Positions 7,590-13,175 of a stretch of DNA of 64,000 bases are shown here, piece after piece (position 1 is the first letter of the stretch; every line of letters begins with the position of its first letter). This stretch comes from Salinicoccus halitifaciens. GTDB taxonomy: Bacteria > Bacillota > Bacilli > Staphylococcales > Salinicoccaceae. The position numbers and the translations under genes were made by a program. Where the stretch lies: positions 1 to 64,000 of the forward strand of contig NZ_JAJNCU010000005.1 of the NCBI RefSeq assembly GCF_021026095.1, in the 5' to 3' direction. The notes under the pieces were generated by a model. It was not told where the DNA came from, did no database searches, and worked only from the letters and a program-made list of their open reading frames with translations.

Positions 7590-8285
7590 TTAAATATAAA
7601 ATACGATGGCGACGTAATGCATTGCACTTGCAGCGATGATGAAGAAATGCCATATCATATGAAAGTATTTACGCTCTTTCTGAGAATAAAACCATGCACC
7701 CACCGTATAACTGATGCCCCCGAGCGCAATCAGGCTGATGAATACCCAGTTCGTCTCACTGATGATCAGCGGCGCGAACAATACGGCCATCCAGCCCATC
7801 AGAAGATAAAAGATCATGCTGACCCTGGAGCTGACTTTCGGGCTCAACACTTTATACAGTATGCCGCCCACGGCCGCGGTCCATTGGATGATGAGTGTGA
7901 AAGTCCCCCAGAACCCGCCGATGACGGAAATTGCGATCGGTGTGTATGTACCTGCGATTGCAACGTAGATCAGACTGTGGTCAAGCAGGCGCATGATGTA
8001 TTTGTGCCTGGTGTTGTGCGGCACGGAGTGGTACAGCGTCGAGGTGAGGAACATGAACAGTATGCTGATGACATAGATGGATCCGCCGACGGCATGCGCC
8101 GTCCCGCCCTCCAGGTACATGTACACGGATGTGAACGGCAGCAGCATGATGAAGATGATCGCCGCCACCCCGTGACTCACACTGTTGCCGACTTCCTCCC
8201 CGAAAGATAACGGGATCATATGGCGCATCGTGCTCTTGTGCGCTTTCTCGTTGTATGCCTTGACCGTCCCGTCATTTTTAGCCAT
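7590..8285 (-). CDS. Hemolysin III / PAQR family membrane protein
   Basis: The protein has 231 residues and seven predicted membrane segments. The PAQR metal-site residues are visible: S and H in SVSHGVAAIIF near residue 40, STLYHS near residue 88, DHSLIYVAIAGTYTP, and H in HFFIIAASAMHY near the C-terminus. Despite the family name, bacterial members are proposed to affect membrane fluidity or lipid homeostasis rather than lyse cells. The start overlaps the stop of the UDP-sugar pyrophosphorylase gene by one base. The same pair of neighbours is, to my knowledge, conserved in Staphylococcus. It is the last gene of the sqdB-led operon. Confidence 0.88.
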   Translation of the reverse strand: MAKNDGTVKAYNEKAHKSTMRHMIPLSFGEEVGNSVSHGVAAIIFIMLLPFTSVYMYLEGGTAHAVGGSIYVISILFMFLTSTLYHSVPHNTRHKYIMRLLDHSLIYVAIAGTYTPIAISVIGGFWGTFTLIIQWTAAVGGILYKVLSPKVSSRVSMIFYLLMGWMAVLFAPLIISETNWVFISLIALGGISYTVGAWFYSQKERKYFHMIWHFFIIAASAMHYVAIVFYI

Positions 8286-9439
8286 CAGATCAGTCCTTCG
8301 GATTTAAGGTCATGATACGCCGTTTCTATGCTGTCTTTACCTTCTTTGTTTTTAAGCGGCGAAAATTCGCCCTTCCTGTCCACCTGCAGCGTATGGTGGG
8401 ATTCTGCATGCTTGAAAGCATCGAAATAAAACTTCTCGAACTTCAGCACTTCCTCTTTCACTTCATCAAGTTCTGCATCGAGGAATTCAAGCTTCTTCAA
8501 AGCAAGATGATAAGGCATCTCGACTTTTCCGGCCTTGTCCAGAAAATCCGTTGTGAAAATATGGATGCCGATATTTCCGTTCAGGAATTCGCGGTCCGTC
8601 CCTTCAGGCAGTTCCGTATACTCGACCACCGCCTTGGCACCGTCCACAAGGCTCAATCGGCCGACACTCTCACCGGGTTTCGGGACGATTGATTTCGATG
8701 TCACCTCGCTGCCTTCCTCCAGATGCAGGCCGGCAAGCAGAGGGTCCAGCACTTTGACGACCGCATTGTCCACATTGTTCATGAAGACATGCATGACGCC
8801 GCGTGCCTTCATATCTTCGAGCATGCCCGATTCATATAATGAAGAGAACACGCCGCCGTTGCCGTTCGGCGTCATCATGATCTTCCTGTCGGCGGTCAGC
8901 AGCAGTGTCTTGTCCTTCCCGACAGGCGGGAAATGTTCCTGTTTGAAGAAGTGCACATTTTCTTCAGGCAGGCCGAAATAATCGTTGACCTTGAAGAAAT
9001 CCAGTGTTTCAGCATGGTTGATGTCACTCGTCATGATGTACCAGTGCACCGGCAGGCCTTCCCCAGTCTCATACTTCTTAAGCTGGCGCGCCTGGAGCTC
9101 GAACAAAGATACACCGTCAAATGAGAACGTGCCCTTCGGGCCGGGATGTTCAAGGCGTGTGCCCTGCCCGCCCGCCATCAATAGGACGGCGAACTCCCCT
9201 TTCCTGACAGCCTCTTCAGCCCGTTCCCCGAGCGCTTCTTTTTGGGAATCATCAAGTGATTCGGCTGAAACGTATGGAATCTCCTCGATTTTCTCCATAT
9301 CGACCGGCTGCGGATTGAGATAAGCCTCCTGGTACACTTTCTCTATCTCATCGATATCAAGTGCTTCGAATGTTTCAGCCAGACGCTGCTGCTCTGCCGT
9401 AGTGAGTTTATTATATTGCGGAATCCATTCTTCAATCAT
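8285..9439 (-). CDS. UDP-sugar pyrophosphorylase (UDPGP/UAP1-like)
   Basis: The protein is about 384 residues long. The nucleotidyltransferase motif LLMAGGQGTRLEHPGPKGT lies near residue 95, and later landmarks include TPNGNGGVF and PKPGESVGRL. The family joins UTP with a sugar 1-phosphate to give a UDP-sugar; eukaryote-like UAP1 members prefer GlcNAc-1-phosphate, and others use glucose-1-phosphate. I chose the ATG at 9439, preceded by GAGGAG at seven bases. The gene sits in the same operon as the UDP-sulfoquinovose synthase, whose substrate is UDP-glucose, so supplying that substrate is an attractive but unproven role. Confidence 0.85.
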   Translation of the reverse strand: MIEEWIPQYNKLTTAEQQRLAETFEALDIDEIEKVYQEAYLNPQPVDMEKIEEIPYVSAESLDDSQKEALGERAEEAVRKGEFAVLLMAGGQGTRLEHPGPKGTFSFDGVSLFELQARQLKKYETGEGLPVHWYIMTSDINHAETLDFFKVNDYFGLPEENVHFFKQEHFPPVGKDKTLLLTADRKIMMTPNGNGGVFSSLYESGMLEDMKARGVMHVFMNNVDNAVVKVLDPLLAGLHLEEGSEVTSKSIVPKPGESVGRLSLVDGAKAVVEYTELPEGTDREFLNGNIGIHIFTTDFLDKAGKVEMPYHLALKKLEFLDAELDEVKEEVLKFEKFYFDAFKHAESHHTLQVDRKGEFSPLKNKEGKDSIETAYHDLKSEGLI

Positions 9440-9458
9440 GGTTTTACTCCTCATCATA

Positions 9459-10760
9459 TTATTCGGTGATCATTTTACGGATGAGCGGGATGTCTTTTTC
9501 ATCCCCGCCGATCTTGTAGTTTTCAAGAACCTTCGTTTTGACGGCTTCGACATCTTCGGTGTTGCTGTGGATGGTCACAAGGGATTCGCCCGCCTCAACG
9601 CGGTCTCCGACCTTTTTGTTCAACATGAGACCGACGGCGAGGTCGATTTCATCGTCTTTCGTCTGACGGCCGGCACCGAGCATGCTGGATGCGATGCCCA
9701 TCGCTTCTGAGCCGATCTCTTCGACATATCCGGACTCAGTCGACTCCACTTCATACTTGAATTCCGCCTGGGGCAGTCTACTCACATCATCGACGATGGA
9801 GGCGTCACCGCCCTGGTTCTTGAGGAACACTTTGAATTTTTCAAGTGCGCTGCCGTCATCGATGACGCCCTGAAGCTTCTCACGTGCCTCTTCGAGCGTC
9901 TCCGCCGCGCCGCCGAGCACCGCCATCTGGCTGCCGAGCTCGAGGCTCAGTTCCGTCAGATCTTCCGGCCCCTCACCTTTCAGCGTCTCTATCGCTTCCT
10001 GCACTTCGAGTGCATTGCCGATGGCGCGTCCGAGCGGCTCTTCCATGCTTGAAATGATTGCCATCGTCCTGCGGCCGACATCATTGCCGATCGTGACCAT
10101 CGCTTTTGCGAGTTCTGCGGCGTCTTCTTCCGTCTTCATGAAGGCGCCGTCGCCGACTTTGACATCAAGCACGATGGCATCCGCACCTGCCGCGATCTTC
10201 TTGCTCATGATGGAGCTTGCGATCAGCGGGATGGAGTTGACCGTGGCCGTCACATCCCGGAGGGCATAGAGCTTTTTATCCGCCGGTGTCAGGTTGCCCG
10301 ACTGGCCGATGACCGCTACTTTGTCCCGGTTAACGATATCAATGAATTCACGTTCCGTGATTTCCACGTGGAACCCTTCCACCGCTTCAAGCTTATCGAT
10401 TGTCCCCCCGGTGTGCCCGAGGCCGCGTCCGCTCATCTTCGCAACCGGCACACCGAGTGCTGCGACAAGTGGTGCCAAAACGAGCGTCGTCGTATCGCCG
10501 ACGCCTCCTGTGGAATGCTTGTCGACTTTCACGCCGTCGATTTCCGACAAGTCGATCTGATCGCCGGAAGCCACCATCGCCATCGTGAGGTCTGCACGTT
10601 CCGCATCATTCATATCATTGAAGAAGATCGCCATCATCAGGCTTGATACTTGGTAATCCGGTATTTCATCCTTCGTATACCCTTCCACCACAAAGTCGAT
10701 CTCTTCTTTTGTAAGCGGCTCTCCGTCACGCTTCTTCGCAATAATATCCACCATTCTCAT
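9459..10760 (-). CDS. pdp: Pyrimidine-nucleoside phosphorylase
   Basis: The protein has 433 residues. The thymidine/pyrimidine phosphorylase signature is present as [17 protein letters not shown] near residue 115, next to [11 protein letters not shown], which binds phosphate. The C-terminal alpha/beta domain is complete. The enzyme splits uridine, thymidine and deoxyuridine with phosphate. The ATG at 10760 follows AGGAGGG. The gene lies 18 bp after the glycosyltransferase gene, inside the sqdB operon. I see no metabolic reason for it to be there beyond possible recovery of uracil nucleotides. Confidence 0.95.
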
Positions 10761-10778
10761 ATGAATCCCTCCTGTAAA

Positions 10779-13090: not shown

Positions 13091-13124
13091 TTGAACATCC
13101 TCCGATTCGCTACGAATATTTTAG

Positions 13125-13140
13125 GTATACTTATGTATAC
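13125..13140. promoter_or_regulatory. Palindromic operator candidate at the sqdB promoter
   Basis: GTATAC, a four-base spacer TTAT and GTATAC form a perfect inverted repeat just downstream of the -10 box, over or just past the expected transcription start. This position suits a repressor. No regulator gene is adjacent. Confidence 0.45.
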
Positions 13141-13146
13141 ACTTCT

Positions 13147-13175
13147 ATTATAAATATTAATCATCAGAGTCACAA
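13147..13175 (-). promoter_or_regulatory. Promoter of the sqdB operon
   Basis: TTGTGA (13170-13175) and TATAAT (13147-13152) lie on the minus strand with a 17-bp spacer. The start site would fall about 50 bp upstream of the sqdB ATG. Confidence 0.75.

Follow-up and report, generated by a model that had tools for sequence, protein, structure and literature searches.

Background

Sulfoquinovosyl diacylglycerol (SQDG), generally presented as a photosynthetic membrane lipid, is made in cyanobacteria and plants by the pathway of SqdB/SQD1 and SqdX/SQD2. Sulfolipids have also been published for Bacillaceae: the relevant passage of one report states that three Bacillus coahuilensis strains with sqd1 and sqdX had them ('data not shown' there; PMC4744853), and the polar lipids of Oceanobacillus massiliensis are listed, in the passage concerned, as including SQDG (PMC4062624). 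According to two reports, the archaeal UDP-sulfoquinovose synthase Agl3 acts in the making of glycoconjugates, which are described as N-linked protein glycans (PMC4388408, PMC12890257). Here we describe a stretch of 64,000 nucleotides from Salinicoccus halitifaciens (contig NZ_JAJNCU010000005.1, positions 1 to 64,000, in the following called the window; the genome of 2.68 Mb is in 11 contigs and 99.75% complete), in which a gene for a UDP-sulfoquinovose synthase, sqdB, is directly followed by one for a GT4-type glycosyltransferase, the predicted sqdX. We are confident that the two genes form a sulfolipid cassette that would make SQDG.

Results

The sqdB gene (11942-13090, minus strand) encodes a protein of 382 amino acids of the NAD-dependent short-chain dehydrogenase/reductase (SDR) type, which matches the structures of Arabidopsis SQD1 (1qrr/1i24) over residues 2-382 (569 bits, E 4.5e-170) with 64% identity. 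The catalytic triad of SQD1 is given as Thr145/Tyr182/Lys186, and the SDR triad and a GxxGxxG NAD motif are named as features (PMC4388408). T144, Y181 and K185 of SqdB align with this triad, and the NAD motif is found as G7-x-x-G10-x-x-G13. Across 37 diverse SqdB rows Y181, K185, E147 and Y148 are invariant, and the position of T144 is taken by Thr in 36 rows and by Ser in the remaining one. Where relatives of sqdB at 87-94% identity are named, they belong to Salinicoccus. Both peptides quoted for SqdB in the first-pass annotation, which was made from the letters of the window, lie inside this one intact open reading frame (ORF), and its naming as a UDP-sulfoquinovose synthase is borne out by the full-length match to SQD1 and the retained active-site residues. 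SqdB would thus be expected to form UDP-sulfoquinovose from UDP-glucose and sulfite.

The adjoining gene (10779-11912, minus strand) is an intact ORF of 377 codons that contains the quoted glycosyltransferase peptide TETFLPSTDGIVTRL. Its product carries the two GT4-type domains PF13439 and PF00534, both over cut-off, and among the NCBIfam matches listed (25 of 45) it reaches no model at cut-off, nor is there an SqdX model among them. Adjacency, tree and residues point to a UDP-sulfoquinovose:diacylglycerol sulfoquinovosyltransferase, i.e. to SqdX, with diacylglycerol as the probable acceptor. In the best 80 of 581 confirmed sqdB loci, a homologue of this GT4 lies directly downstream of sqdB on the same strand in 52 and nearby in another arrangement in two. 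Bacillota have it with sqdB in 29 of 30 loci, 28 of which show this same-strand downstream arrangement, and cyanobacteria in 15 of 28; the window GT4 is 43-47% identical to the proteins of these 15 cyanobacterial loci, one of which is cut by a contig end. When 16 whole genomes were searched, the sqdB-adjacent copy was the best GT4 match of the genome in all 13 that have one, whereas the remaining three had their best matches (36-45%) away from sqdB.

Two GT4 trees were built. The larger, of 79 rows, was drawn from 88 collected, nine same-family rows (L009-L017) being left out; for the smaller, of 58 rows, six outgroup rows (L195, L196, L197, L199, L200 and L076_out) and the SqdX-side rows L054, L062 and L072 were taken out individually, along with 12 redundant close relatives. 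The GT4 paralogues of the genome itself, which did not pass the hit or length filter, stand outside both trees. In the 58-row tree one branch (support 89/94) splits 50 SqdX rows, the cyanobacterial ones in the same group as the window GT4, from eight rows, namely seven other GT4s and a distant one of Chloroflexi. T19 together with R20 is present in 65 of 65 SqdX rows and in none of eight other GT4 rows; since the rows were chosen by adjacency and tree, this pair describes the SqdX group rather than proving a function. The description of the protein as SqdX-like is upheld by its grouping and its linkage to sqdB. The glycosyltransferase was compared with the SqdX of cyanobacteria.

A small membrane protein family was seen in or beside sqdBX in 17 of 40 loci clustered (L039-L048, L051, L052, L059, L063, L065, L068 and L070; not the window locus). 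Two scanned members are GtrA-type (PF04138), and such a protein might serve the sulfolipid as its flippase or as some other partner.

The pair stands at the head of five packed minus-strand genes that run from 13090 down to 7590 in the order sqdB-sqdX-pdp-uap-PAQR, with spacings of 29, 18 and 1 bases and an overlap of one base between uap and PAQR; proC (6704-7516) comes next. The third gene, pdp (9459-10760), had been left unmentioned in the first-pass annotation and encodes a pyrimidine-nucleoside phosphorylase (PRK06078, 725.9 bits, cut-off 559). It is followed by uap (8285-9457), for a UAP-type uridylyltransferase of the UDPGP family (PF01704), and by the gene of a PAQR/HlyIII-family membrane protein (TrhA; 7590-8285; PRK15087, 193.5 bits, cut-off 80). 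All five relatives without sqd genes whose locus was read have pdp-uap-PAQR in the same order. In four of them orf106, the ORF upstream of sqdB in the window, is followed by pdp after 15-22 bases, so that the sqdBX site is closed; no orf106 was detected in the fifth. Of the 33 family genomes, 32 carry UAP as against 19 with full-length SqdB, genome G001 has sqdBX and no UAP match, and two galU genes of the S. halitifaciens genome score over the curated cut-off. For these reasons we see in pdp, uap and PAQR conserved neighbours, do not count pdp as an SQDG gene, and regard sqdB-sqdX as a two-gene cassette that heads a conserved housekeeping run. UAP and PAQR had been put forward as parts of an SQDG operon, the former as its possible supplier of UDP-glucose; in view of the distribution of UAP, the synteny of the sqd-less relatives and the two galU genes this reading is not supported, and we reject them as parts of the pathway. 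As a correction to the term UDP-sugar pyrophosphorylase, the nearest solved structures of UAP are UDP-N-acetylglucosamine (UDP-GlcNAc) pyrophosphorylases.

The gene order of the window is kept in the six Salinicoccus-type loci read, except that pdp and uap lie about 6.5 kb apart in L171; for G024 and G028 the match positions hint at a gap of similar size. G049, from another family of the order, has sqdB-sqdX, then about 1.7 kb, then uap-PAQR-proC, with no pdp match. This suggests that the linkage of sqdBX to uap-PAQR predates the family, and that some genera are no less likely to have lost the pair than others to have gained it. In G014 and G015 (L122 and L123) the UAP match has one TAA inside.

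Full-length SqdB was found in all 18 genomes of the two Salinicoccus-type genera (6/6 of g1 and 12/12 of g6), in the single genome of g2 and in 0 of 14 genomes of g3-g5, and it is stop-free in all 19 that have it, at 82-100% identity. At E <= 1e-80, 20 of the 157 genomes from the order have it, spread over 4 of 14 genera, 19 of them in the same family and one in another. A sample of 398 Bacilli genomes has it in 57 (28 of 146 genera), 55 of these at 61-100% identity and two at 46%. The large family of the order that lacks an SqdB match we take to be Staphylococcus and its kin. To place SQDG outside the textbook lipids of Staphylococcaceae is fair, but this has to be set against these numbers and the published sulfolipid of Bacillaceae. 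Direct transfer from cyanobacteria is rejected as the origin, as SqdB and SqdX both sit among Bacillota rows; further trees on chosen subsets comprised 30 and 37 rows. In the actinomycetotal family Dermabacteraceae (Brachybacterium and Dermabacter hominis; L049 and L054) both proteins also stand among Bacillota rows, SqdX in the 79-row tree (for L049 in the 58-row tree and a subset tree as well) and SqdB in a subset tree, which suggests that sqdBX was acquired there by transfer from Bacillota.

With regard to substrates, UDP-glucose most likely comes from GalU enzymes encoded elsewhere in the genome. For sulfite, the genome encodes a 453-amino-acid Lactamase_B-Rhodanese protein beside a 366-amino-acid Rhodanese-TusA-DsrE protein, domain orders that resemble those of staphylococcal CstB and CstA. 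Persulfide dioxygenases yield sulfite, and the CstB-like protein is a candidate for feeding SqdB by persulfide oxidation. A second CstB-like gene consists of two ORFs of 87 and 363 amino acids and is perhaps broken (L217:2862-4223; contig C5 of the genome, approximately 368.4-369.7 kb). Strong CysH matches occur in 1 of 6 g1 and 6 of 12 g6 genomes. The UgtP-type domain PF06925 is present in four of the 33 family genomes, one of which (G001) has sqdB; none of the 18 g1 and g6 genomes, that of S. halitifaciens included, has it, and it is also missing from 11 of 14 sqd-less genomes. Across the family genomes there is no clear association of sqdB with either CysH or UgtP.

Upstream of sqdB a sigma-70-type promoter (TTGTGA-17-TATAAT, 10/12; 13147-13175, minus strand) is predicted after a terminator-like stem between orf106 and sqdB (13235-13264, minus strand). 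Both are consensus matches, which over the whole region are near chance in number (10 found vs 7.4 expected and 9 found vs 6.5 expected). Six bases past the predicted -10 starts the element GTATAC-ATAA-GTATAC (13125-13140, minus strand). GTATAC-N3-5-GTATAC has a single site in the genome (about 0.5 expected from base composition); among the 19 family loci, in three genera, 18 have an exact copy with a spacer of 3, 4 or 5 bases and the nineteenth has one substitution, while none of 26 other loci inspected (L035-L060) has the element. Leader and ribosome-binding region are likewise conserved in the family loci. Folding of four leaders gave z values of -0.8 to -1.4, with 19-44 of 200 shuffles folding equally well, which is no convincing gain over shuffles; the best fold of one of the four (L020) lacks the hairpin. 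The element is a possible operator or 5' mRNA hairpin. A PhoP-box-like sequence, TTTACA-N5-ATTACA, also lies upstream of the window sqdB, its best four-repeat score being reached by 5 of 60 shuffles; the corresponding scores of L005, L006, L020, L046 and L055 were reached by 0 of 60 shuffles and that of L007 by 1 of 60, and at most other sqdB loci the score was no better than that of shuffles.

As to its surroundings, orf106 (13270-13590, 106 amino acids, called as an ORF) is without a Pfam or NCBIfam match at E 0.001 and is present at the locus in eight of nine family loci read. A TAXI-type TRAP transporter lies between orf106 and sqdB in g6 and g2 loci (L033:6028-9810, from S. halodurans, L170:2106-5930 and L167:4039-8073), its parts being an NMT1_3 receptor, DUF1850 and a DctM permease by Pfam on L033 only; it is missing from L034 and from the window locus. 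Just upstream of orf106, 13606-16357 holds tryptophan/kynurenine-type genes, presumably tryptophan 2,3-dioxygenase-, kynurenine formamidase- and kynureninase-like. A plasmid collection matched only 5-7% of the query, in three records, and an Rfam scan of 6400-13700 gave nothing at E 0.5. Elsewhere in the window, the protein of 53925-54851 contains a long stretch of short acidic PEA-type repeats.

Discussion

The locus is most readily understood as a cassette in which SqdB would oxidise and dehydrate UDP-glucose on its bound NAD+ and add sulfite to give UDP-sulfoquinovose, the sulfoquinovosyl group of which would be passed by SqdX to diacylglycerol. The product would be SQDG, an anionic and phosphate-free membrane lipid, which, as the first-pass annotation proposed, might suit a halotolerant cell such as that of this relative of the staphylococci. 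UDP-glucose would be provided by the GalU enzymes, and sulfite by a source other than CysH, for which persulfide oxidation by the CstB-like protein is the candidate. The case that the genes are correctly identified is strong, and SQDG is very likely to be their lipid product.

Several points weigh against this reading. The prediction of SQDG, and with it that of any physiological role, rests on genes, sequence comparison, synteny and phylogeny, and UDP-sulfoquinovose alone is no proof of SQDG because Agl3 serves glycoconjugates. SqdB scores 499.1 bits on the NCBIfam model of UDP-sulfoquinovose synthase (NF041015) and so misses its cut-off of 575; this miss carries little weight, however, because SQD1 (484.7, lower than the window protein), two cyanobacterial SqdB (471.4 and 484.8) and one Alicyclobacillus SqdB (486.3) miss it too. 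Furthermore, 26 of the 80 sqdB loci are without such a GT4 in the stretch examined, some of them being short contigs; the support for the SqdX group is moderate and not of the strongest grade; and the 79-row tree, with its long-branch outgroups, put three other GT4 rows among the SqdX rows. Finally, CysH (PF01507) was not found in the genome, the control matching in 14 of 14 known genomes, so that sulfite must come from elsewhere. The CstB-like protein reaches 41.5 bits of 625 on the NCBIfam sulfur transferase/dioxygenase model, and neither it nor its Rhodanese-TusA-DsrE neighbour attains an NCBIfam cut-off.

Could the GT4 move sulfoquinovose to another acceptor, such as a phospholipid, a polyprenyl phosphate or a glycan, so that the product is not SQDG? 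There is a precedent in Agl3, and among named NCBIfam models the GT4 comes closest to that of N-acetylglucosaminyl phosphatidylglycerol synthase, on which its 175.9 bits stay well below the cut-off of 480. But this model does not discriminate, because it scores a cyanobacterial sqdB-adjacent GT4 (168.7) and two non-SqdX paralogues (182.8 and 178.8) alike, and the window protein groups with cyanobacterial SqdX, not with the non-SqdX paralogues. We therefore hold a different acceptor to be improbable. Slightly less probable again is that the whole run from sqdB to PAQR is one functional SQDG operon, with UAP giving UDP-glucose and PAQR tuning lipid homeostasis. The tight same-strand packing and the gene order kept in Salinicoccus-type loci speak for it, and a UDPGP enzyme could use glucose-1-phosphate; yet the last three genes keep together in all five sqd-less relatives read, G001 has sqdBX and no UAP match, the S. 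halitifaciens genome has two galU genes, and the solved structures nearest to UAP are those of UDP-GlcNAc pyrophosphorylases.

Least probable of these alternatives is that the cassette is intact yet silent or vestigial under most conditions. Searches of open-licence papers, in which most species descriptions are missing so that a negative counts for little, gave no SQDG report for Salinicoccus, which speaks for this; but SqdB is full-length and stop-free in every family genome that has it, and its leader and ribosome-binding region are conserved. To return to an active two-gene cassette, a bolder version of it would make SQDG a major constitutive glyceroglycolipid of Salinicoccus that replaces the undetected UgtP-type glucosyl-diacylglycerol lipid, with its sulfonate drawn from organic sulfur via persulfide oxidation and not from sulfate reduction, and with synthesis governed by the dedicated sqdB leader element. 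This combination we consider doubtful, if less remote than the alternatives just weighed.

The occurrence of SqdB in all 18 Salinicoccus-type genomes examined and in about one in seven of the Bacilli sampled suggests that SQDG is not rare in non-photosynthetic Gram-positive bacteria. If so, SQDG would be less specific as a biomarker than has been assumed, and these bacteria would be a further natural source of sulfoquinovose. Moreover, an SQDG producer in which CysH was not detected would lend itself well to tracing the origin of the sulfite used by SqdB.

How does the locus compare with the known systems? With the cyanobacterial and plant pathway it shares both enzymes, the active site of SqdB and a gene adjacency that cyanobacteria show in 15 of 28 loci. 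It differs in that the host is non-photosynthetic with no CysH detected, and in sequence, SqdB being 64% identical to SQD1 and the GT4 43-47% to cyanobacterial SqdX. Agl3 of Sulfolobus acidocaldarius is likewise a UDP-sulfoquinovose synthase, but its product is reported to be used for protein glycans and not for a lipid; its important Glu147 and Tyr148 share their numbers with the invariant E147 and Y148 of the window, a likeness by number and not by alignment. Bacillus coahuilensis, whose source is given in the passage concerned as low-phosphorus waters (PMC4744853), has the same two-gene pathway in a different family, likened here by description and not by sequence, whereas the pair of the window heads the pdp-uap-PAQR run. 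The same sqdB-sqdX pair is found in Halobacillus, Pontibacillus, Gracilibacillus, Planococcus and Marinococcus, with 74-80% identity to the window in SqdB and 48-61% in SqdX. Unlike the window, these loci lack matches to pdp, uap, PAQR and proC in their 10-kb flanks, and in Gracilibacillus, Planococcus and Marinococcus sqdX is followed by a GtrA-type membrane protein, which the window is without. The pair is thus already known in Bacilli, a published Bacillus included, and is an ordinary if rarely noted trait of this class.

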